DNA of 64,000 bases from Flavobacterium resistens (GTDB lineage: Bacteria; Bacteroidota; Bacteroidia; Flavobacteriales; Flavobacteriaceae): positions 310,001 through 374,000 of the forward strand of contig NZ_FXTA01000005.1 of assembly GCF_900182645.1 (NCBI RefSeq), read 5' to 3'. Each line of letters opens with the position of its first letter. Position 1 is the first letter of the stretch. A model generated the notes under the pieces. That model saw only the letters and a program-made list of their open reading frames with translations, ran no database searches and was not told where the DNA came from. Position numbers and translations under genes: made by a program. Below are positions 1-13,374 of the stretch, one piece after another.

Positions 1-59
1 TCATTTGTAATTTTTTGGTCAGGAAAAACATATTCAATATTTCTAATAATTGCTCCCAT
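1..59 (-). CDS. 3-oxoacyl-ACP synthase III-like protein (N-terminal fragment, cut by window edge)
   Basis: An ATG at 57-59 on the minus strand opens a frame that runs off the left edge. The 19 readable residues are MGAIIRNIEYVFPDQKITN. This resembles the N-terminus of KAS III (FabH-like) enzymes found in surface-polysaccharide loci, which start with a short beta strand, a Y-x-x-P turn and a T-N pair. It begins 27 nt after the stop of the acyltransferase gene, so it probably belongs to the same operon. Such genes often sit beside acyl carrier proteins and supply an acyl group for sugar decoration. The family call rests on only 19 residues. Confidence 0.45.
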   Translation of the reverse strand, partial: MGAIIRNIEYVFPDQKITN

Positions 60-86: not shown

Positions 87-956
87 TTAATTTAAAGGAA
101 TAAATCTCGCCTTATTATTGTATAAAAACTTATATACCATCCTTTCTGTTAGAATATTAGTTTTATTAAAAGTCTTATCAAACAGATAAAAAACACTTAT
201 AGAAATGTCATCTATTTTATTTTCTGATTTTGTAAAAATTACTTTTTCGTTATTAACAGAATTCAAAAGAATCAAATCATTATCTGTAGAATCTAAAAGA
301 AAATTAGTAGAGTTCGTTGAAATAAATTCCTTTAACCAATTTTCAAGCATTTCAAATTTTTCATCAATTGTTTTAGGCAAATAAAAATTTAGCTTTTCCA
401 TTAATTTAGCGGGACTTCCGGAATATGCACTATTCGGCAGTGTATCTTTGGTAATAACCGAATTAATTAATGCCGTACTTCTTTTACCCAAAGTAATACC
501 AGAACCAACTACACAACTTCCAACCAACCAGACATCATCCAATATATTTGTTTTCCTTTTTGCAAATAATATACATCCTTCTATTTGTTCACCACTCGCA
601 ACGTGTGTCCATATCTGAGAATACATGCCAACTCTTACGCCGTTACCTATTTCTAGTCCTCCGGCACCATCCAAAATAGTATTTTGACCAAACCAGCAGT
701 TATGACCAATTATGATATGATCTTCTGCCATGATAAGCATATCATTATGAAAAACATTCCAATCACCTACTTTAAATTTTCCATGAATGAAAATACGTGT
801 GTTATCGTTAATTATATTATTATCTCCAATTAAAACTTCAATGTTTGGATCATCTCCAATTACTTCGATAACAACATTTTTTCCTATCCTATTATGTTCA
901 CCCAAAACAACTTTAGGATGAATTTTTGCCGAAATATCTATCTGATTTGTAACCAT
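87..956 (-). CDS. Left-handed beta-helix (hexapeptide) acyltransferase with an extra C-terminal region
   Basis: About 289 aa. The first ~190 residues carry repeated [IV]-G-x hexapeptide turns of the LbetaH acyltransferase fold, with a WTH segment (candidate catalytic His) and an SGSPAK end typical of sugar O- or N-acyltransferases. The last ~95 residues are Asn/Lys-rich, match no domain I recognise and lie outside the helix. A start at 956 (MVTNQ) is preferred, because the longer frame from 989 would overlap the upstream stop at 968-970. The gene lies between a DegT-family gene and a KAS III-like gene, which suggests it transfers an acyl group to an amino sugar made next door. Donor and acceptor are unknown. 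Confidence 0.75.
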   Translation of the reverse strand: MVTNQIDISAKIHPKVVLGEHNRIGKNVVIEVIGDDPNIEVLIGDNNIINDNTRIFIHGKFKVGDWNVFHNDMLIMAEDHIIIGHNCWFGQNTILDGAGGLEIGNGVRVGMYSQIWTHVASGEQIEGCILFAKRKTNILDDVWLVGSCVVGSGITLGKRSTALINSVITKDTLPNSAYSGSPAKLMEKLNFYLPKTIDEKFEMLENWLKEFISTNSTNFLLDSTDNDLILLNSVNNEKVIFTKSENKIDDISISVFYLFDKTFNKTNILTERMVYKFLYNNKARFIPLN

Positions 957-967
957 ATCGTTTTTTT

Positions 968-2026
968 TTATTGCACCCACCAGCCACATGGCAATGCTAA
1001 GAATTGATTCATAAATTTTGAAACCCCAATTAATTTTTCACTATTTTTAAAAACTGAATAAATATTGTTATTTATATGAACTCCTGTTGCATACCAACCT
1101 TTCTTCCTAAATTCTTCTAATGCCAGTTTTTTATCTTCGCATAAAACACCATAAACCCAAAAATTAGGATTTGTTTCTTTATTTAAATTCAAGGGAACAA
1201 TTTGTTTACTTTCGGCTATTCTTTCATTCCAGACTATGGCATTTTGCCTTTGCTTTTTTAAAAGATCGTCAATATCATTCATTTGCTTTATCCCAATTAG
1301 CGAATTTATCTCACTCATAAGTGCACCATAACCCTCCACCTCAATATCGCATTCTGCACTTATTTCTCCATTAACATCTCTAAATTTACTTCTATCGATC
1401 CCATAATCTCTAATCATCTTCGCTTTTTCATAAAGATTTTGATTCTTAAAAGATATTGCAGCTCCATCTATTGTATTTGGTAATCTAACTGTTTGAAAAG
1501 AAAATACTGCAATGTCAGATTCATTACTACCCATTTTCTTGCCATTAAATTCTGAACCAAACGCTTCAATACAATCATCAACTACAATTAAATTATGTTC
1601 AATTCCAATTTTTCTAATTTCATCTATTTGCCCTAAGTAACCGCAAAAATGATTATGAAATATTGCCTTAGTTTTTGAAGTAATTCTTTTTTTTACATCT
1701 TCAGGACACATGCTTCCTGTTTCAGGATTAACATCAGCCCAGACTATTTTTAAATTTTTCACTACAAAAGGCTGATTGGATGCTAAGCAACTAACAGGTG
1801 AAGCTATTATCTCATCTCCTTGTTGTAATCCTAACGTAGATAAAACAATTTGCATTGCGTGGTTATAAGAACTAACAGTTAAAATATTTAAATTACCTGT
1901 ATAATCAGCTAAAGCTTGCTCAAATAACTTTCCATATTTTCCATAAGCCAAATTCCCTGAATATAGAATTTTTTCTATATCTGGTAGTAAATTATCTGGC
2001 ATATAAGGTTTGTAGATTGGAATCAT
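968..2026 (-). CDS. DegT/DnrJ/EryC1/StrS-family protein lacking the PLP-binding lysine
   Basis: About 352 aa with the overall fold signature of sugar aminotransferases: an N-terminal PIYKPYMP segment, a VVDD motif whose second Asp (about residue 151) should contact the PLP ring nitrogen, and an FSFQTVRLPNTIDGAA segment. In the neighbouring paralog the same segment reads YSFQAIKHLTTIDGGA, and its Lys forms the internal aldimine. Here that position is Arg (codon AGA, 1484-1486). The usual SGTAAL phosphate-binding loop is also altered, to SSYNHAM. Transamination is therefore unlikely by the standard route. It may be a partner subunit, a lyase-like derivative (ColD uses His here) or an inactive copy. 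The ATG at 2026 overlaps the upstream TAA (TAATG), so this start is preferred to the GTG at 2032. Confidence 0.8.
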   Translation of the reverse strand: MIPIYKPYMPDNLLPDIEKILYSGNLAYGKYGKLFEQALADYTGNLNILTVSSYNHAMQIVLSTLGLQQGDEIIASPVSCLASNQPFVVKNLKIVWADVNPETGSMCPEDVKKRITSKTKAIFHNHFCGYLGQIDEIRKIGIEHNLIVVDDCIEAFGSEFNGKKMGSNESDIAVFSFQTVRLPNTIDGAAISFKNQNLYEKAKMIRDYGIDRSKFRDVNGEISAECDIEVEGYGALMSEINSLIGIKQMNDIDDLLKKQRQNAIVWNERIAESKQIVPLNLNKETNPNFWVYGVLCEDKKLALEEFRKKGWYATGVHINNNIYSVFKNSEKLIGVSKFMNQFLALPCGWWVQ

Positions 2027-3114
2027 TACCACCCTTTTTTCATTAATTCAATCATCTTGTCACAATCCTCTTTTGTAACCCACCAACCACAAGGAATGTG
2101 CACCATATTTTGATAAAAATTATCCAAATTTGGCAAGTCAGCTGGAAAATCATTTAAATAGGTATGTAAATCATTTCTTTTATGAAGTTCAGAAGCCATA
2201 ATTCCGTTTTCAGCCATCATTTTTACAAATGCATCTCTATTTTTTACTTTTAAGGTATATAACCAATAAGATGGTTCTGTGTCTGGGTAGTATTCAATAA
2301 GCTCAACTCCATCTATACCTTTCAAATTTTCATCAAGATATTTTCCATTTTCAATATATTTTTGAACTATCGATTCGATATTTTCAAGTTGAACAATTCC
2401 AATAGCGGCATTTACATTATTCATATGATATTTATATCCTTGAATTTGAATATCATTTTCTAGTCTTGATATATTTTTATCTAATCCAAACCATCTAATA
2501 ATTTTACCTTTATTATACAAATTATTATCAAGAATTTGTAAAGCGCCCCCATCTATAGTTGTTAAGTGTTTTATAGCTTGAAAAGAATAAATAGTAAAAG
2601 GAAAATGGTTTCCTGTTCTCTTTCCTCTAAATTTAGCACCTAAAGCATGGGCTGCATCTTCGATTACCGGAATGTTATATTTTTTAGAAATTTCTTGAAT
2701 TTTACTTACATTCACAGGAATCCCAGCATAATCAACTACAATAATTGCTTTAGTATTAGAATTTATAGCCTTTTCAATAGATTCAGGTGAAATATTGCCT
2801 GTAGATAAATCAACATCAGCCCATCTTACTTTTGCTCCAACCATTTTTATTGCCACATTAGTTGGCTCTGCAGTCAAAGCTGTGCTAATAACTTCGTCTC
2901 CTTGTTTGACACCGGCTAAAATTAATGCAATATGAAGAGCAGCTGTTCCAGAATTTAAAGAAAGTGTATTTCCCCCACCTATATAATTTTCAAATTTTCT
3001 TTCAAACTCTTCTACAACATCACCTTGAGCCACATAACCACTATAAAGCACTTCTTCAAGTTTTGGCATCAATTGTGACTTAGCTGGTATATTCGTTTTT
3101 ATTAGTGGTAACAT
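2026..3114 (-). CDS. DegT/DnrJ/EryC1/StrS-family sugar aminotransferase
   Basis: 362 aa, normal length for PLP-dependent nucleotide-sugar aminotransferases. The phosphate-binding LNSGTAAL is near residues 53-60, VIEDAAHALGA carries the PLP-contacting Asp near 153, and YSFQAIKHLTTIDGGA carries the Schiff-base Lys at about 182. The expected activity is transfer of an amino group (usually from Glu) to a keto sugar bound to a nucleotide, in the cytoplasm. The adjacent CapE-like dehydratase, 3 nt upstream, could supply the keto sugar. Its stop overlaps the start of the lysine-less paralog by one base, so the two are translationally coupled and may form a heteromer. The exact substrate cannot be read from sequence. 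Confidence 0.88.
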   Translation of the reverse strand: MLPLIKTNIPAKSQLMPKLEEVLYSGYVAQGDVVEEFERKFENYIGGGNTLSLNSGTAALHIALILAGVKQGDEVISTALTAEPTNVAIKMVGAKVRWADVDLSTGNISPESIEKAINSNTKAIIVVDYAGIPVNVSKIQEISKKYNIPVIEDAAHALGAKFRGKRTGNHFPFTIYSFQAIKHLTTIDGGALQILDNNLYNKGKIIRWFGLDKNISRLENDIQIQGYKYHMNNVNAAIGIVQLENIESIVQKYIENGKYLDENLKGIDGVELIEYYPDTEPSYWLYTLKVKNRDAFVKMMAENGIMASELHKRNDLHTYLNDFPADLPNLDNFYQNMVHIPCGWWVTKEDCDKMIELMKKGW

Positions 3115-3117
3115 ATA

Positions 3118-4140
3118 TTATTTTTTAAATGAAGCTAATTCGTCTCTCACATAATCTAGAGTAAGTAATAATTTTTTCAGATTCTCTACATTTAATCTTT
3201 CTGTATTATCTGAATTATATTCCTCATCAAGCAATTTAGGTCCATCTTCTTTTACATATTTTGTATAATTAAGATCTCTAAAATCGGCAGGAATTCTGTA
3301 GAATCTACCGATATCTTCAGCTTTAGACATTTCTTCTTTTGAACAAAGTGTTTCATACATTTTCTCTGAATGTCTTTCTCCAATTATATTAATTTCATTA
3401 TTTACGTTAAAAATTTCTTTTAAAGCTATTGCTAAAGTTTCAATAGTAGCTCCTGGTGATTTTTGCACAAAAATATCTCCCGGATTACCATTTGTGAATG
3501 CAAACATCACTAATTCTACAGAATCATCCAAAGACATCATAAATCGAGTCATTTTTGGATTCGTTACTGTTAATGGTAAACCTTCTTTTATTTGTTTAAT
3601 AAATAAAGGAATAATAGAACCTCTAGAGCACATAACATTTCCATATCTAGTTGCTGTATATATGGCTTCAATCCTTTTAACTCTAGAATCTCTTGCCTTA
3701 GAAACAGCTAATTTTTCCATAAATGCTTTTGAAATCCCCATTGCATTTATAGGATAAACTGCTTTATCTGTACTTAAAACAACTACTCGCTCTACATTAT
3801 TCTGAGCAGCTGCTTCTAACACATTTTCTGCACCTAAAATATTAGTCTGCACAGCTTGCATAGGATAAAACTCACAAGAAGGAACTTGTTTCAAAGCTGC
3901 TGCATGAAAAACAAAGTTAACACCATCCATTGCTGCGTTTATACTCTTAAAATCTCTTATATCACCTATAACAAAATTTAGCTTATCATTTTTGTATTCG
4001 ATTCGCATATCTTCTTGCTTTTTCTCGTCTCTTGAGAAAATTCTAATTTCTTTCAAATCAGAATTTAAAAAACCTTTAAGCATCGCATTACCAAATGAAC
4101 CTGTGCCTCCAGTTATTAATAAAACTTTATCTTTAAACAT
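3118..4140 (-). CDS. capE: CapE-like UDP-GlcNAc 4,6-dehydratase/5-epimerase
   Basis: 340 aa extended SDR protein (Polysacc_synt_2 type). The NAD(P)-binding GGTGSFG lies at about residues 11-17, followed by FSRDEKKQ, then FHAAALKQVPSCEF and STDKAVYPINAMGISK. The usual YxxxK catalytic pair appears as MGISK, with Met in place of Tyr, as recalled for Staphylococcus aureus CapE. CapE converts UDP-GlcNAc to a UDP-2-acetamido-2,6-dideoxy-4-keto hexose with 5-epimerisation, on the route to FucNAc-type sugars. FlaA1/PseB-type enzymes are relatives, but the Met variant favours CapE. It lies directly upstream of the aminotransferase pair, which may use its 4-keto product. Confidence 0.82.
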   Translation of the reverse strand: MFKDKVLLITGGTGSFGNAMLKGFLNSDLKEIRIFSRDEKKQEDMRIEYKNDKLNFVIGDIRDFKSINAAMDGVNFVFHAAALKQVPSCEFYPMQAVQTNILGAENVLEAAAQNNVERVVVLSTDKAVYPINAMGISKAFMEKLAVSKARDSRVKRIEAIYTATRYGNVMCSRGSIIPLFIKQIKEGLPLTVTNPKMTRFMMSLDDSVELVMFAFTNGNPGDIFVQKSPGATIETLAIALKEIFNVNNEINIIGERHSEKMYETLCSKEEMSKAEDIGRFYRIPADFRDLNYTKYVKEDGPKLLDEEYNSDNTERLNVENLKKLLLTLDYVRDELASFKK

Positions 4141-4200
4141 CCTATGTTTTTTAATTATGTTAATTTATAATATGCTTTTTATCATTAAATATTAAAAGAA

Positions 4201-5271
4201 TCACATTAATAATGCAATCAATCTTTTAAAGACTAAAAATATAGTACCTAGAAAAAAACCCAAAAAACAACCAATTACAATTCCTTTTGCTTTCCCAAAA
4301 CTTTGTTTTAATAAAGGCAAAATAGGTCTATCAATAATTTGTATTAAAGGTGTTTCTTTTCTCAAAGTAACTTTTGCTAATTCAGATTGTTTTACTAATT
4401 CCGTAAGTATGGCTGTATTAGCCTGAACATCGACTTGTCTTCGAGCTGAAGGTGCACGACGTACGTTAAGTGCAGGATTAAGATTAAAAGTATTATCGTT
4501 AGCTACAGCTACTCCAGTAATAGCTCCATTGAGTTCACTTCTTATAGAATCAACCTGATGTTCCAAAATTTCCATATTCATGCGAGCTTTTTTACTTTTC
4601 GTCTCTACATAAAATTTACCTACTTGTTTTGCAAGAGCCTCGCAAAAATAAAAAGAAAACAATTCGTTATTTGATGATACATCCATCGATATGATCGCAA
4701 TTTTCTTATCTTTTTGTGCTACAGATAAAGAACTCTTAGACAAATTTTGATATATTATTCCTAAAATACTATCATGTGCCCGGGTAAAATACTTGCGATT
4801 ACTTTCAGGTAAAAATTGCAAATTTTTAAATTTTGGATTATTACTCCATTTGTCCCTCCATTCATTATTTTGAATATACATCTCTGCCAATGAGATTACT
4901 TTTCCATTTACCGTTACTGGAGTCATCAAAGTCTTCTCTACCATTGTTCGGGATTTAAACAACTCTGTCAAATTAGAGCCTGTAAATATTCCTCCACCAC
5001 TTCCACCTAAATCCAGCCCAAATGAACTCGCCAGACCTAAAGCTCCTCCCAAACCGCCACTTGCAGACTTATCATCCTCTAAGGCAAAAGACAATGTGGC
5101 AGTGTACACGGGCTTTTTTAAAATTGCATACGTTAAACCTATTCCCGCACCAATTATTCCGGCACATAATATAATTTTCCATTGAGAAAGCAAATAAGCA
5201 ATCCACTCTTGCGCTTTCGATAGTAAATCTTTTAAAGAAATTTCATCACTAGGTATATTTTTATTATCCAT
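4201..5271 (-). CDS. Wzz-type chain-length determinant / polysaccharide copolymerase without kinase domain
   Basis: About 356 aa. There is a membrane helix near residues 35-55 (WKIILCAGIIGAGIGLTYAI), a long periplasmic part with coiled-coil tendency, a proline-containing ILPLLKQSFGK segment and a second membrane helix near the C-terminus (GIVIGCFLGFFLG). This is the Wzz/PCP layout. A Gly/Leu-rich insertion (GGLGGALGLASSFGLDLGG) follows the first helix. No Walker motifs follow, unlike the kinase-bearing paralog at 14397-16847. The ATG at 5271 lies 8 nt after the SLBB-gene stop; the frame can be extended to 5298, but that would overlap the upstream gene. It probably works with the SLBB protein as a chain-length and export pair. 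Confidence 0.8.
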   Translation of the reverse strand: MDNKNIPSDEISLKDLLSKAQEWIAYLLSQWKIILCAGIIGAGIGLTYAILKKPVYTATLSFALEDDKSASGGLGGALGLASSFGLDLGGSGGGIFTGSNLTELFKSRTMVEKTLMTPVTVNGKVISLAEMYIQNNEWRDKWSNNPKFKNLQFLPESNRKYFTRAHDSILGIIYQNLSKSSLSVAQKDKKIAIISMDVSSNNELFSFYFCEALAKQVGKFYVETKSKKARMNMEILEHQVDSIRSELNGAITGVAVANDNTFNLNPALNVRRAPSARRQVDVQANTAILTELVKQSELAKVTLRKETPLIQIIDRPILPLLKQSFGKAKGIVIGCFLGFFLGTIFLVFKRLIALLM

Positions 5272-5278
5272 CAAAAAT

Positions 5279-7723
5279 TTATTTAAATGCTGTAACAATT
5301 AATAATGCTAAACTAGTCAAAACACTACCAATACTAACCCATTCACCAGTACTCATCTTTTTAGTTTCAGGCTTTTCTGGAACTACAATTTGCGAATCTG
5401 GCTCAACTTTTGGATATGATCTAAAAAACAGGAATGATTGTGTAACTGATGCTTTACCGTTTGGATAGATTATGTAAGCTTTTTTCTTCCATCCTTTATT
5501 ATCTACACCACCAACGGCATTTATATAATATCTAAAGCTTTTTCCATTTCTATATGGAATTTCAGAAGTTAACAGTACATTACCTGTAACTTTAACACCT
5601 TCATTATAAACAGCAACTTCAATTTCATCTCCAGGAAACAAAGTTACATTGGAATAGTGATTTTTATCTTTAACTATTTTCTCCCAATTAACTGGAATAG
5701 TAGCATACTTTAAATCTTCTTTTAATTTTTTAGAGAGTTTTTCCTTAAGAGTATCATTTTTAGCCAAATTCAAATCAACACTTTCGATTTTTTCAATTTG
5801 CTCTTGTTTAATTGGTCTCTTAATTTTCATACCATCCAAATTTGCTATGGATGTCAATCCACCCGCACGCATAACTACATTATAAACAGTTTCTTTTTTA
5901 TTAGCCAAAACATATTTCCCTGGATAACCAACTGCCCCACTTACTGTTACCATTTGAGGTTTTTCATAAACTGCCATTTTACGAATATTAATAACATCAA
6001 AAGGTTTTAGCACAAAGTTTTTAATCTGTTCATTATTATCTGCAGTAATTTCGAGTTCAACTAATTCTATACGTTTCGGATCAGCATCATCAATTACATC
6101 TGATTTTACCATTCTTGCAATTTCCACTCTTTTAGAAGCTGAACCGGTCAGTCCACCTACCTGAACAACTAAATCATTTAAAGTCAAATTTTCAAAATAT
6201 TCATATTCTCCAGGGTTTTTAACTTCTCCATCGATAGTAACTTTATACTCCTCTCTAAAATCCAAAATTGAATACACCGTTACAATATCTTCTCTCTTTA
6301 ATTCAATATCAGCATTTAAATCTCCTGATAACGCACTTGCTAAATCGACATTTACAATTTCTGTAGTTAAATCAGTCTTTAAGCGAATAATTCTTGCTCT
6401 CTTTGTGTATGCATCTTCTTTTAATCCTTCTGCTCTAGTTATAAGATCAGAAATTCGCATTCCTTCATTATAAGAATAATAATCTGGTCTAAAGACAGCT
6501 CCTTCAATTTTGATACGATTCTCAAAACGATTTAAAATCTTAGTTACTTTAAAAACATCCCCTGATTGTGGTATATAGGTACTATATTCACTTTCATTGA
6601 TATCTTGAACTTTAAATTCTTTTCCTGTTTTTTGCAAAACATTTACAGATGCAGTATAAGCAAACTCATTAAATCCTGAAGCAAAATTTAATAAATCGGA
6701 AAATTTTTCTCCTTTCTTCATTTCGAAAATACCAGGACGCTTTACTTCTCCCTCTACTACAACTCTATTGGTATAAGAAGGAATTCTAATAACATCATTA
6801 TCTTTTAATGTAATATTATCCGATTGATCTCCTTTAACCAAAAATTTATAAATATCAATATTTCTATAAACTTTATTATTTCGTAGTAATTCAATATTTC
6901 GATAACTTCCGTTTTTTCCTGGACCTCCAGCTAAATGTAATGCATTATACACTGTAGCTAATGATGAAATCGAATAATTACCTGGCTGCTTTCCACCAAC
7001 AATTGTAATTTTAATCGTTCTTATTCCACTCAAACTGACACTAACTTGAGATTGACCAGATCTTACCGTGCTGTAAACACGAGAGATAGCGGCTTTTATT
7101 TTTTGAGTTGCTGCTTCAATTGACATACCTGAAACTGCAATTTGCCCCACATAATCAATAGTAACTTTTCCTTCAACACTAACTGGAATACTTGCATTAT
7201 ACTCCTGAACTCCAAAGACACTAACTTGTAATTCATCCCCAGGTCCTAAAACATAATTAATTGGAGTTGCTAATTTCAAATCTGGTTCAAAATTTAATGT
7301 TGGATTATCAAATAATTCAGAACCAAAAATTAATGCATTCAGTGAATCTTTTACTTTATCATTTTTGATTTTTTCTTGTTTCCTACCAAACTCTGAATCT
7401 TTGTCATTTTTCTTTAATTTATTTTCGTTGTCAGTACCTTTTTTAGAATCTTTAGCATTCTTCTTTTCGTATTCTGTTAACTTGATCCTTAATTTATTAA
7501 ACTCTGTTTGAGTCATTCCTTTAGACAAAACCGCTGGTTCAATCTGATCAAGAGTGGCATTATTACTTTTTAATTGAGCACTAATTTTTGCCAAATCATC
7601 ATCTGACAAATAATCAACTTTTATGGTACTTAAATCTTTAGACTTAAGCAAATCCTGAGCATGTCCATTGAAAGACATTAATAAAATAAAAAATAATGTA
7701 AGAACGTAAGTTATCTTTTTCAT
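5279..7723 (-). CDS. Long multi-SLBB polysaccharide export protein (Wza-related)
   Basis: 814 aa, about twice the length of Wza. It has a signal peptide (residues ~1-22, ending NGHAQ), a charged Lys/Asp/Glu-rich linker (~85-130), a Poly_export domain with YVLGPGDELQVSVFG near 157-171, then about six SLBB-like repeats recognisable by V-x-G-x-V-x-x-P-G (for example VEGEVKRPGIFEM, IDGEVKNPGEYEY, VSGAVGYPGKYVL). A hydrophobic helix (VSIGSVLTSLALLIVTAF) lies at the C-terminus. There is no lipobox. It is predicted to form or line the periplasmic/outer-membrane export channel for the polysaccharide. The next gene encodes the matching Wzz-like protein. Confidence 0.86.
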   Translation of the reverse strand: MKKITYVLTLFFILLMSFNGHAQDLLKSKDLSTIKVDYLSDDDLAKISAQLKSNNATLDQIEPAVLSKGMTQTEFNKLRIKLTEYEKKNAKDSKKGTDNENKLKKNDKDSEFGRKQEKIKNDKVKDSLNALIFGSELFDNPTLNFEPDLKLATPINYVLGPGDELQVSVFGVQEYNASIPVSVEGKVTIDYVGQIAVSGMSIEAATQKIKAAISRVYSTVRSGQSQVSVSLSGIRTIKITIVGGKQPGNYSISSLATVYNALHLAGGPGKNGSYRNIELLRNNKVYRNIDIYKFLVKGDQSDNITLKDNDVIRIPSYTNRVVVEGEVKRPGIFEMKKGEKFSDLLNFASGFNEFAYTASVNVLQKTGKEFKVQDINESEYSTYIPQSGDVFKVTKILNRFENRIKIEGAVFRPDYYSYNEGMRISDLITRAEGLKEDAYTKRARIIRLKTDLTTEIVNVDLASALSGDLNADIELKREDIVTVYSILDFREEYKVTIDGEVKNPGEYEYFENLTLNDLVVQVGGLTGSASKRVEIARMVKSDVIDDADPKRIELVELEITADNNEQIKNFVLKPFDVINIRKMAVYEKPQMVTVSGAVGYPGKYVLANKKETVYNVVMRAGGLTSIANLDGMKIKRPIKQEQIEKIESVDLNLAKNDTLKEKLSKKLKEDLKYATIPVNWEKIVKDKNHYSNVTLFPGDEIEVAVYNEGVKVTGNVLLTSEIPYRNGKSFRYYINAVGGVDNKGWKKKAYIIYPNGKASVTQSFLFFRSYPKVEPDSQIVVPEKPETKKMSTGEWVSIGSVLTSLALLIVTAFK

Positions 7724-7769
7724 TCGGCTATAGTTTTAACTTTATATATCGTTAAAATAAATTTTTAGA

Positions 7770-8816
7770 TTATGAATATTGTTTTTTATAATAATCTTTA
7801 TAAGATCCTGATGTGACATTTTTCAGCCACTCCTCATTATTTAAATACCAATTAATAGTCTTTTCTAAACCTTCCTCAAAAGTAACGGATGGTTTCCAAC
7901 CTAGTTCTTTATTGATTTTTGATGCATCAATCGCATAACGTAAATCATGACCCGGCCTGTCTTTTACATAAGTAATTAGCTTTTCAGAAGTTCCTTTTTC
8001 TCTTTCAAGTTTGCCATCCATAATCTGGCATAATAATTTAACCAAATCAATGTTTTTCCATTCGTTAAATCCTCCAATGTTATAAGTTTCATGATTTTTA
8101 CCCTCATGAAAAACTAAATCTATTGCAATAGCATGATCTTCCACAAAAAGCCAATCACGCGTATAATTACCATCTCCATAAACTGGTAGAGACTTATTGT
8201 TTATGATATTATTTATAAAAAGCGGAATTAATTTTTCAGGAAAGTGGTATGATCCATAATTATTTGAACAATTTGTTAAAACATAAGGTAATCCATAAGT
8301 TTCGCCATATGCTCTCACGAAATGATCTGAACTTGCTTTTGACGCAGAATATGGAGAATTTGGATCATAGGGCGTTGTTTCTGTAAATAATCCCTCAGCG
8401 CCAAGAGAACCATATACTTCATCTGTACTAATATGATAAAACCTTTTTCCTTCAAAATTACCTTTCCATTGATTTTTTGCTGCATTTAGCAAATTCATTG
8501 TTCCAATTACATTTGTTTTAACAAATGCAAGTGGATCTTCAATCGAACGATCAACATGAGATTCTGCAGCTAAATGCAAAACACCATCAAATTTATGTTG
8601 AGAAAAAAGTTCATCTATAAAATTGGCATCAACTATATCTCCTTTTAGAAAATTATAATTAGGCTGATTTTCGATATCTTTAATATTCTCAAGATTTCCA
8701 GCATAAGTTAATGCATCTAAATTAAAAATTTGATATTCTGGATATTTATTCACAAAACGTCTAACTACATGTGACCCAATAAAACCAGCACCGCCAGTGA
8801 TAAGAATTTTTTTCAT
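7770..8816 (-). CDS. rfbB: dTDP-glucose 4,6-dehydratase
   Basis: 348 aa, standard RmlB length. NAD-binding GGAGFIGSH is at residues 8-16, HLAAESHVDRSI near 81-92, the catalytic STDEVYG at 130-136 and YSASK at 156-160 (YxxxK). It dehydrates dTDP-glucose to dTDP-4-keto-6-deoxyglucose, the entry to dTDP-rhamnose and many amino-deoxy sugars. No rfbA, rfbC or rfbD is in this window; they must lie elsewhere, or the keto sugar feeds another branch such as the DegT enzymes. It is in line with the surrounding capsule genes. Confidence 0.93.
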   Translation of the reverse strand: MKKILITGGAGFIGSHVVRRFVNKYPEYQIFNLDALTYAGNLENIKDIENQPNYNFLKGDIVDANFIDELFSQHKFDGVLHLAAESHVDRSIEDPLAFVKTNVIGTMNLLNAAKNQWKGNFEGKRFYHISTDEVYGSLGAEGLFTETTPYDPNSPYSASKASSDHFVRAYGETYGLPYVLTNCSNNYGSYHFPEKLIPLFINNIINNKSLPVYGDGNYTRDWLFVEDHAIAIDLVFHEGKNHETYNIGGFNEWKNIDLVKLLCQIMDGKLEREKGTSEKLITYVKDRPGHDLRYAIDASKINKELGWKPSVTFEEGLEKTINWYLNNEEWLKNVTSGSYKDYYKKQYS

Positions 8817-9863: not shown

Positions 9864-11147
9864 CTATAATCTGTTGTCAGCTATAGCTCCTAAAACTCCT
9901 TTTACATCGTATAATAAACTATTTTCTTTTTGCAATTCTGAAAAATTTAATCCTAAAAATTCAGTGTGCGCAACGCCTAAGACTATTGCATCAAATTTTT
10001 CTTTTGGAATTGAATTTACAGTTTGTAATTCATATTCTTCATGTACCTCTTTAATATTAGCTAAAGGGTCAAATACTGTTACTGATATTCCATATTCTGT
10101 CAATGATTTTATAACATCAACAATTTTAGTATTTCTGACATCTGGACAATTTTCTTTAAAGGTTATGCCCAACATTAAAAGATTAGCTCCATTAACAGAA
10201 ATACCTTTTTTTATCATCAGTTTTACTACTTGCGAAGCAATATATTCCCCCATACTATCATTTAAACGTCTTCCCGCCAAAATTATTTCAGGGTGATATC
10301 CAAATTCTTGGGCTCTTTGAGCTAAATAATAGGGATCTACGCCAATACAATGTCCTCCGACTAAGCCTGGTTTAAAAGGCAAGAAATTCCATTTCGTGGC
10401 TGCCGCCGCTAATACTTCCTGAGTATCAATATTCATTAAATTGAATATTTTAGCCAACTCATTTACAAAAGCAATATTAATATCTCTTTGAGAGTTTTCA
10501 ATAACTTTCGCTGCTTCTGCTACTTTTATTGTTGGAGCTAAATGCGTACCTGCAGTAATTACAGATTTATAAAGAGCATCTACTTTCAAACCAATTTCCG
10601 GCGTTGAACCAGAAGTTACTTTTAAAATTTTTTCGACAGTGTGCTCCTTGTCTCCGGGGTTAATTCTCTCAGGGGAATATCCCGCATAAAAATCAATATT
10701 TAATTTAAGTCCTGAAACGTTTTCTAAAACTGGCACACATTGCTCTTCAGTAACACCTGGATAAACAGTTGATTCATAAATAACAATATCACCTTTTTTT
10801 AATATTTTTCCAACTGTTTCACTTGATTTGTATAACGGAGTTAAATCAGGGCGGTTGTTTCTATCAACAGGAGTTGGAACTGTAATTATAAAATAATTAC
10901 AATCAGCAATATCTGTTGAAGAACTTGTACAATACAGTCCAATTTGTGAATTAGGTTTATCAACTAATACTTTTTGTAAATCATATTGATCAACCTCCAG
11001 AGTAGAATCTATTCCAGATTTTAAGTTCTCTACCCTCGCTTTATTAATATCAAAACCTACAACTGGATATTTTGTAGCAAATAATCTTGCCAAAGGGAGA
11101 CCAACATAACCTAAACCTATAACAGCTATTTTTATGTCTTCGTTCAT
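9864..11147 (-). CDS. UDP-N-acetylhexosamine 6-dehydrogenase (TviB/WbpO type)
   Basis: 427 aa of the UDP-glucose/GDP-mannose dehydrogenase family. It has NAD-binding GLGYVGLP at residues 11-18, VPTPVD near 90, YSPERINPGD near 157-166 and the catalytic segment GGHCIGVDPYYLA (264-276, Cys267). The GGHCIGVDPYYL form is typical of UDP-HexNAc dehydrogenases such as TviB/WbpO and differs from UDP-glucose dehydrogenases. It oxidises UDP-GlcNAc (or GalNAc) to the uronic acid. Together with the WbpP/TviC-like epimerase at 13402 it could give UDP-GalNAcA. It is the first gene after the internal promoter at 11241-11271. Confidence 0.87.
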   Translation of the reverse strand: MNEDIKIAVIGLGYVGLPLARLFATKYPVVGFDINKARVENLKSGIDSTLEVDQYDLQKVLVDKPNSQIGLYCTSSSTDIADCNYFIITVPTPVDRNNRPDLTPLYKSSETVGKILKKGDIVIYESTVYPGVTEEQCVPVLENVSGLKLNIDFYAGYSPERINPGDKEHTVEKILKVTSGSTPEIGLKVDALYKSVITAGTHLAPTIKVAEAAKVIENSQRDINIAFVNELAKIFNLMNIDTQEVLAAAATKWNFLPFKPGLVGGHCIGVDPYYLAQRAQEFGYHPEIILAGRRLNDSMGEYIASQVVKLMIKKGISVNGANLLMLGITFKENCPDVRNTKIVDVIKSLTEYGISVTVFDPLANIKEVHEEYELQTVNSIPKEKFDAIVLGVAHTEFLGLNFSELQKENSLLYDVKGVLGAIADNRL

Positions 11148-11982: not shown

Positions 11983-13374
11983 TTAAGAACCAATTCCTTT
12001 ATAAACAAACCCAATACTTTCAAGTTCTTTTGCATTTAGTATATTTCTTCCATCAAATAAAAATGCAGGCTTATGCATAGAATCATATATTTTCTGCCAA
12101 TCATAACTAATAAACTCATCCCATTCGGTCAAGATTGAAATCGCATGTGCACCTTTACAAGCCTCATAAGGATCATCAAATACAGTTAACGCTTTATTAT
12201 TTTCTTCACTTGATCTTGTTTGTAAATAATCCAAATCATTCAACATTTTGCTTTCTGATACTTTAGGATCATATACCGAGATACAAGCTTGCTCATTAAT
12301 TAAATCATCAGCAACGTAAATTGCAGCTGATTCACGGGTATCATTTGTATCTTTTTTGAAAGCCCAACCTAAAAATGTTATTTTCTTATCAGCAACAGTG
12401 TTATATAAAGTCTGAACTATTTTACTAGAAAATCTTCTTTTCTGATGATCATTCATAATGATTACTTGTTCCCAATAATCAGCCACTTCATTTAATCCAT
12501 ATGATTTCGCAATATAAACTAAATTTAAAATGTCTTTTTGAAAACAAGAACCTCCAAATCCAACTGAAGCTTTTAAAAACTTTGGCCCAATTCGACTGTC
12601 CATTCCAATCGCTTTTGCAACTTCATTTACATCAGCTCCAGTCTTTTCGCATAATTCAGACATTGCATTTATTGAAGAAATTCTTTGTGCTAAAAATGCA
12701 TTTGCCGTAAGCTTCGATAATTCTGAAGACCAAACATTTGTTGTTAAAATTTTACTTTTATCGACCCAGTTCGCATAAACATCAACTAAAGCATTTATTG
12801 CCGATTCACCCTCTGGAGTTGTATCTCCACCTATTAAAATCCTGTCTGGATTTAACAAATCTGTTACGGCAGTTCCTTCTGCTAAAAACTCTGGGTTAGA
12901 CAAAATCTGAAATTGCACACCATTTCCTGTATTATCTAAAATACTTTTTATAGCTTCGGCTGTTCTTACAGGTAAAGTAGATTTTTCTACAACTATCTTA
13001 TTTTCCTTAGCTACTTTTGCAATTTGTCTGGCACATAATTCAATGTATTTTAAATCAGCTGCCATACCTTTGCCTTTTCCGTAAGTTTTCGTTGGAGTAT
13101 TAACTGAAATAAAAATTACTTGTGCTTCATCAATTGCTTTTTCAACATCTGTCGAAAAGAAAAGATTTCTTCCTCTAGCTTCGGCTACAATTTCTGACAA
13201 ACCTGGCTCATAAATCGGAATATTATTAGTATCTGGATCATTCCAGTCTTTAATTCTTTGTTCGTTCAAATCGACAACTGTCACTTGAATATGCGGACAC
13301 TTTTGAGCAATCACTGCCATAGTTGGACCTCCAACATAACCAGCACCTATGCAACAAATTTTTGTAACTTTCAT
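11983..13374 (-). CDS. ugd: UDP-glucose 6-dehydrogenase
   Basis: 463 aa. NAD-binding GAGYVGGPT is at residues 10-18, VVDLNEQRI near 33-41, PIYEPGL near 53-59, VNTPTK near 91-96, and the catalytic Cys277 lies in [12 protein letters not shown]. It oxidises UDP-glucose twice to UDP-glucuronate. The GAGYVGGP start, the IYEPGL and [10 protein letters not shown] segments and the length recall the longer animal-type UGDH more than the ~390-aa E. coli form; this is my reading of motifs, without an alignment. It lies between the NusG-like gene and the epimerase gene. Confidence 0.92.

Follow-up and report, generated by a model that had tools for sequence, protein, structure and literature searches.

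A predicted lysine-less sister of a DegT-family sugar aminotransferase, carrying arginine at the PLP-lysine position, accompanies an active-type twin in bacterial sugar-nucleotide cassettes

The window, a stretch of 64,000 nucleotides of the Flavobacterium resistens genome (contig NZ_FXTA01000005.1, positions 310,001 to 374,000), carries a minus-strand cassette in which two adjacent genes encode DegT-fold proteins. These two, here termed LYS and ARG, lie between a dehydratase gene (FNL) and an acyltransferase gene:

87–989, minus strand: left-handed beta-helix (hexapeptide) acyltransferase; the new amino group is its presumed target
968–2026, minus strand: ARG, DegT-fold protein of 352 aa with Arg (R181) replacing the PLP lysine; ATG start at 2024–2026, TAA stop at 968–970
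1484–1486, minus strand: AGA codon of R181 at the Schiff-base lysine position, aligning to LYS K182 and to AtmS13
2024–2028, minus strand: one-base overlap of the LYS stop and the ARG start (TAATG)
2026–3114, minus strand: LYS, active-type DegT aminotransferase of 362 aa, with K182, SGT cup, D153, S177 and K228
3118–4140, minus strand: FNL, FnlA/PseB-like UDP-GlcNAc 4,6-dehydratase, of inverting type by homology, with NCBIfam scores below the cut-offs

The original prediction, that Arg has taken the place of the internal-aldimine Lys in an intact gene coupled to a normal paralog, was confirmed. The AGA codon at 1484–1486 aligned without gaps both to the Lys of the solved AtmS13 and to the Lys of the neighbour (AAA, window 2569–2571), which stands in the same motif as R181. 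The 352-aa frame is open throughout 968–2026, and the neighbour with which it shares one base has its Lys. The predicted change of the SGTAAL loop to SSYNHAM and the retention of the ring-nitrogen Asp (D151) were also found. The next four paralogs found in the same genome (L003–L006), read by eye, all have Lys.

Both proteins belong to the DegT/DnrJ/EryC1/StrS family by profile PF01041 (ARG 207.9 bits, LYS 288 bits; gathering cut-off 19.8). Neither reached the cut-off of any listed NCBIfam family; the best match for both was PseC, whose equivalog model TIGR03588 gave 155 bits for the window ARG and 227 for LYS against a cut-off of 423.5. This model matched 40 of the 40 members of ARG set A3, with a best E of 1e-51. 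AlphaFold2 models had pLDDT values of 93 (ARG) and 94.3 (LYS), and the predicted ARG superposed on CalS13 (4zas_A) with Z 43.9 and rmsd 1.7 over 343 residues, giving it a sugar-aminotransferase fold. Because the alignments and this superposition agree, R181 is placed at the canonical Schiff-base position of the predicted DegT fold. The window ARG model lacks the last helix of LYS, and protein lengths suggest the same for most other ARGs.

The threshold for calling a homolog ARG was a score >300 bits against the window protein. A scan of genome contigs, seeded by two ARG peptides that exclude R181 and hence biased toward ARG-like sequences but not toward Arg itself, yielded 36 loci, 34 of them at no less than 51% identity; family and phylum searches added more. 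Pooled ARG homologs had Arg in 46/46 cases, and their same-locus LYS partners had Lys in 45/45. Two weaker loci below the threshold (L055 and L056) had Lys. Dropping six duplicate sequences left 40 distinct ARGs, from Flavobacterium (including F. psychrophilum DSM 3660 and F. columnare), Chryseobacterium, Pedobacter, Tenacibaculum and other Bacteroidota, with three from Acinetobacter and two from Bacillota MAGs. One ARG-bearing contig is labelled as a Rhizobium MAG (L035); its ARG groups among Flavobacterium-genus sequences in the tree, and the contig is probably mis-binned.

Two divergent pairs were added, one from the alphaproteobacterial Sphingomonadaceae plasmid CP099620.1 and one from genome G966 of the Acinetobacter phylum set. 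Each consists of one Arg member and one Lys member. The Lys members are 44% and 47% identical to LYS, and the divergent ARGs share 25–33% identity with the other 40 and 39% with one another. Arg is thus fixed in all 42 distinct ARG homologs, down to 25% identity, where the PLP-dependent DegT aminotransferase class has its Schiff-base lysine. R181 is among 27 invariant gap-free columns of the alignment. When 100 genomes of the Acinetobacter phylum (G926 included) were searched, 24 matched and 26 loci were fetched; the Arg form was limited to G926 and G966 (two loci each), with Lys at the remaining 22 loci. Genome frequencies outside Bacteroidota are rough.

Mobile and viral records were also searched. 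There were 28 plasmid records matching at E≤1e-30, and the one inspected holds a Lys/Arg pair; the plasmid ARG, used as a query, found its own record only. Eleven phage records matched at E≤1e-20, of which the two inspected both have Lys, as do all four loci on viral contigs. Among these are LYS-like DegT genes, 38–41% identical to LYS with Lys kept, in Flavobacterium phage immuto 3-5A (L082), a 595-kb uncultured phage (L083) and viral contigs L110 and L112. The immuto 3-5A gene is surrounded by glycosyltransferase genes, and another gene annotated as a transaminase is close by.

ARG is under purifying selection. The ten ARG pairs of lowest dS had dN/dS values (NG86) of 0.08–0.16, with 0.06–0.12 for LYS in the same loci; medians for unsaturated pairs (NG86) were 0.22 for ARG (375 pairs) and 0.20 for LYS (347 pairs). 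ARG evolves somewhat faster (mean identity 0.58 vs 0.65), and its branches are longer than those of LYS. In a first tree of 89 rows, ARG (40) and LYS (38) each formed one side of a branch with 100/100 support. A second tree of 66 rows, midpoint-rooted and including the divergent pairs, gave 100/98 for both ARG (28 rows) and LYS (27 rows); the L085 ARG was flagged as long-branched, and the two L081 proteins as unusual in composition. The tree that the original prediction had called for thus places ARG in a well-supported clade of its own, sister to LYS, although the joining of the two apart from phage single genes had a support of 92/52 only. The Pseudomonadota pairs are the first branches in both clades of the second tree, which suggests that the two genes have moved as a pair. 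A simple reading would be one duplication and one Lys-to-Arg change, with joint inheritance or transfer since. The sequences show that ARG lacks the PLP lysine kept by its sister, an active-type DegT sugar aminotransferase, and that it is a fixed part of the cassette.

Occurrence of the twins was matched at every taxonomic level, the window's own genome being counted within each set. ARG was present in 6 of 150 genomes of the genus set, 3 of 397 of the family set and 5 of 395 of the phylum set; LYS profile searches found the same six, the same three, and the same five at E≤2e-155. Two phylum genomes (G601 and G722) gave weaker LYS-profile matches (E 1e-84 to 1e-89), from solitary Lys genes that fall outside the LYS clade. 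LYS immediately precedes ARG in 37 of the 40 distinct loci and is linked to it in the other three, with one gene between them in L016 and L054 and, in L035, a distance of ∼6 kb on the same contig, Lys intact. The one-base overlap (gap −1) was computed in 19/40 distinct loci, with the start unresolved by pattern in seven more. Among 46 loci we found no ARG gene fusion, and ARG frames are 348–375 aa long. A lysine-less paralog accompanied by an active-type one is the arrangement that marks LCB1/LCB2-type pairs. ARG, strictly kept with LYS in the cases examined, very likely has a job of its own.

Thr60, Asp156, Ser180, Lys185 and Asn239 are the strictly conserved ligand-contacting residues of three DegT enzymes in the accessible text of PMC8040287. 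At these places LYS has T57 (39/41, with Ser in 2/41), D153, S177, K182 and K228 (41/41 each), the Asn239 place being matched to K228 by motif. K228 aligns with ArnB Lys241, which is located at the amino donor according to the accessible part of PMC5936713. ARG has N55 (38/42, with Ser in two and Thr in two), D151, S176 and R181 (42/42 each), and at 234 Gly (28), Ala (7) or Ser (7), in place of the Asn or Lys of the GYNY/GYKY motif. The S-G-T signature of the phosphate cup is gone from ARG: Gly is replaced by Tyr or Phe in 40/42 and by Met in the two divergent sequences, Thr is Asn or Ser in 40/42, and the Ser beside the cup Gly position is Asp in the two divergent ARGs. By this alignment LYS has all five cofactor residues or their usual substitutes, and ARG has two, the ring-nitrogen Asp and the phosphate Ser. 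ARG retains two of five cofactor residues, and side chains occupy the place of the PLP phosphate, so that both PLP binding and PLP catalysis by ARG are unlikely.

The rest of the pocket is conserved. Residues C80, S83, D151, S176, R181, F215, R216, E221, H317, N320 and Y323 are invariant in 42/42 ARGs, and H126 is present in 38/42. H317 and N320 align with H311 and N314 of LYS and match, by motif, the sugar-lining loop of Spr1654 as described in the accessible part of PMC5936713. Since these pocket and sugar-loop residues are invariant, ARG likely still binds a nucleotide sugar.

The cassette comprises an FnlA-like dehydratase, LYS, ARG and a variable N-acyl/formyltransferase. FNL scored 513.5 bits to the NCBIfam FnlA model (cut-off 730) and 300.6 to PseB (cut-off 407.75), below both cut-offs. 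A homolog of FNL is in the locus for 29 of the 40 distinct ARGs and was found by genome search for the other 11 (47–82% identical). An FnlA-like dehydratase (about 60%) also lies near both divergent pairs, in each of which a GNAT-annotated or similar gene precedes LYS.

Acyltransferase types were defined by one representative each, and the other genes were typed by BLAST to the representatives. The first gene after ARG is of GNAT type in 22/40 loci and of left-handed beta-helix type in 12/40 (34/40 together); the type of the window's own acyltransferase lies directly downstream of ARG in 11/40 loci, window included. The 165-aa GNAT type scored 25.0 against a cut-off of 25, and the 310-aa type scored 23.1, below cut-off. 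A 223-aa type directly follows ARG in 4/40 loci (L015 at 2568–3236, L009, L031 and L040); its representative, from L015, matches no Pfam or NCBIfam model, resembles formyltransferases by eye, and is followed in that locus by a formyltransferase. Inspection by eye showed a frame resembling formyltransferases in L037 and, in L046, a GNAT-like ORF upstream of LYS. Loci L027, L042 and L051 continue with a ketoacyl synthase and an SDR, and L001 and L022 with weaker matches of this kind.

Three loci (L009, L010 and L030) have ARGs that are 87–90% identical beside three different acyltransferase types. ARG therefore probably serves the common part of the pathway, before acylation; a role tied to one acyl group is unsupported. 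The gene families suggest a route that leads from UDP-GlcNAc through a 4-keto-6-deoxy sugar to a 4-amino sugar, which then receives one of several acyl groups.

Several further features of these loci were noted. Past the acyltransferase, L013 (18034–19999) and the window (1–59) carry an SDR and a ketoacyl-synthase-III-like gene (33% to its Tenacibaculum counterpart), and such genes downstream of the acyltransferase perhaps make the acyl group. Within 3260–8773, the same polysaccharide cluster of L013 contains a 671-aa FlaA1/PglF-like dehydratase (by eye) and, ∼12 kb from ARG, a second, Lys-type DegT gene. Elsewhere in the window, two different nucleotide-sugar dehydrogenase-like genes (9864–11147 and 11983–13374, by eye) lie in one cluster. 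L021 (3883–7927), from F. psychrophilum DSM 3660, which we take to be the type strain NCIMB 1947, carries FNL, LYS, ARG and a left-handed beta-helix gene. In the accessible parts of PMC6519341 and PMC5601056, F. psychrophilum strains with solved O-polysaccharides have FucNAc genes and pglE/pglF in their loci, and NCIMB 1947 has a different, variable 'Type-0' polysaccharide locus. Presence of the cassette may account for part of this difference.

What the original prediction offered for ARG, a new enzyme or a pseudo-enzyme subunit, fits the Arg fixed in 42/42, the purifying selection and the presence of a LYS partner for each ARG; the part that invoked ColD did not fit (below). ARG is probably a PLP-less, sugar-nucleotide-binding partner at the keto-to-amino stage, whether as a subunit beside LYS or as an enzyme in its own right. 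By analogy we tentatively favor, at somewhat less than even odds, a non-catalytic partner subunit of LYS that has given up PLP and works at that stage, before acylation. LYS would perform PLP transamination of the 4-keto sugar. In ARG, R181 may pair with the kept D151 and so fill the cofactor cavity, and the sugar-site residues H317, N320 and Y323 and the loop F215/R216/E221 would still hold the labile 4-keto sugar or hand it over, much as LCB1 stands beside LCB2. The cassette product would be a UDP-2-acetamido-4-(acylamino)-2,4,6-trideoxyhexose for surface polysaccharide. We favor a subunit because the twin is paralogous, lysine-less, mostly adjacent and never separated, as is LCB1 with LCB2; LCB1, without a PLP lysine, still forms an active heterodimer in the accessible text of PMC3794620. 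The subunit step is the least secure part of this partner model.

Two indirect results argue against a tight ARG–LYS heterodimer. One is that LYS holds its own complete set of cofactor residues, K228 included. The Lys of the GYKY motif, K228 in LYS, is donated across the dimer interface, and a LYS site completed by ARG would miss it because ARG has Gly, Ala or Ser there. The other is that a co-evolution signal specific to ARG and LYS was absent from a mirror-tree comparison of identities (26 loci, 325 pairs, with rates differing between genes). The correlation was 0.61 for ARG with FNL and 0.43 for ARG with LYS; the partial correlation was 0.04 for ARG–LYS given FNL (bootstrap 5–95%: −0.14 to 0.20) and 0.48 for ARG–FNL given LYS. 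ARG–FNL exceeded ARG–LYS in 98% of bootstraps, a margin that shrinks without the divergent clades. The intervening genes of L016, L054 and L035 and the lack of fusions among 46 loci also count against the partner model. Recombination seems to have joined LYS lineages to different ARG lineages: L011 and L012 have LYS 94% and ARG 67% identical, and L030 and L031 have ARG 74% and LYS 56% identical. Swapping of this kind, a similar ARG with a divergent LYS or the reverse, was seen in these two pairs of loci and in L020/L049, and suggests recombination inside the cassette.

The same results bear on another possible, though less probable, explanation, that ARG is a separate PLP-free enzyme with R181, D151, C80, H126 and H317 in the former cofactor pocket. 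Its step might be, for example, an epimerisation at C3 or C5 of the 4-keto sugar that FNL makes, or of the product of LYS, with LYS using the resulting stereoisomer. The invariance of R181, D151, S176, C80, S83, H317, N320 and Y323, with H126 nearly so, exceeds what a dead site needs; the closer tracking of FNL than of LYS by ARG distances and the tolerance of partner swaps also favor it, and strict co-occurrence would fit if ARG acts upstream of LYS. Against it, FnlA-like enzymes, by their family name, already epimerise, the proposed chemistry is a guess, and the mirror-tree rests on 26 loci with unequal gene rates and a margin that is smaller without the divergent clades. We know of no PLP-fold sugar epimerase. 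The fuller form of this idea, a cofactor-free aminotransferase fold in which the invariant Arg works with Asp151, Cys80 and His317 to change the stereochemistry of the 4-keto sugar before amination by LYS, we consider rather unlikely. If true, it would make ARG a lineage of the PLP-enzyme fold working without PLP across at least three bacterial phyla.

A ColD/E1-like PMP-dependent deoxygenase, with Arg in the role of the ColD His, is improbable. ColD and E1 have His at the Lys position and bind PMP, and the PDB entry 3bb8 is titled 'E1 Dehydrase H220K Mutant'. The fold is the same (ColD and E1 chains at Z 39–40) and the ring-nitrogen Asp and phosphate Ser are invariant in ARG. However, Arg and not His is fixed in 42/42, the GYKY Lys or Asn is lost in all 42, and the phosphate cup has been lost through the replacements of its Gly (Tyr, Phe or Met), its Thr and, in two sequences, the neighbouring Ser. 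The ColD analogy of the original prediction is disfavoured on these grounds, Schiff-base Lys, cup and GYKY lysine all being absent.

Still less credible is an aminotransferase that holds PLP by another lysine. The original prediction had named a Lys elsewhere in the active site as grounds for abandoning it, and no new conserved Lys was seen in the ARG alignment, where only K6, K120, K201 and K299 are Lys in at least 32/40 sequences. K6, the candidate surrogate, is conserved in the 40 close homologs (40/42 overall), and in a related enzyme the N-terminal strand runs near the active-site Lys (Trp9 near Lys185, in the accessible text of PMC8040287). But AtmS13 and 36/41 LYS have K6 alongside the normal Lys, the two divergent ARGs have Asp and Gln there, and the phosphate cup is lost. 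Finally, a neutral or decaying duplicate, at which the somewhat faster evolution of ARG and the helix missing from the window protein might hint, can for practical purposes be dismissed, since the random degradation that the original prediction had set as its other refutation was not seen: frames are open in 40/40 distinct loci, dN/dS is low in the ten closest pairs, and Arg is invariant to 25% identity.

The fold and the family are already known, and lysine-less DegT proteins such as ColD exist. We found no description of a clade in which Arg is fixed and an active twin is always present; a search of the accessible literature turned up no DegT pseudoenzyme or Lys-to-Arg DegT variant, which does not prove that none has been published. 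The defining residue of PLP enzymes is lysine, and an Arg-fixed clade accompanied by an active twin wherever it was seen offers a natural test of a cofactor-less aminotransferase fold. The single annotated record that was examined names each twin simply as a DegT-family aminotransferase, so inferred sugar pathways may miss a step or a subunit; the pathways affected are those of polysaccharide clusters in Flavobacterium, Acinetobacter and others. The pair is small and its predicted substrate route begins at UDP-GlcNAc, which makes the question amenable to direct testing.

Among known systems, AtmS13 and CalS13 (PDB 4ZWV, 4XAU and 4ZAS) are the best matches in sequence and fold (ARG E 3e-39 and Z 42.8–43.9; LYS profile E 3e-100). 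They have the Schiff-base Lys where ARG has Arg, work as homodimers and are not known to have a twin that lacks the lysine. ColD, E1 and related PMP-dependent sugar dehydratases share with ARG the DegT fold and the loss of Lys, whereas ARG has also lost most of the phosphate cup. Pairs of homologous subunits, one without the PLP lysine, occur in other subfamilies of fold type I, to which both GcvPA/GcvPB, an established heteromer, and serine palmitoyltransferase belong. In the latter, LCB1 and LCB2 resemble ARG and LYS in this respect, in the accessible text of PMC3794620. The LCB1/LCB2 heteromer is established, that of ARG and LYS a tentative proposal. PseB, PseC (the UDP-4-amino-4,6-dideoxy-beta-L-AltNAc transaminase) and PseH have, to our knowledge, no Arg twin. 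Their logic of dehydratase, DegT aminotransferase and N-acyltransferase is like that of the cassette, in which the acyltransferases are of several types.
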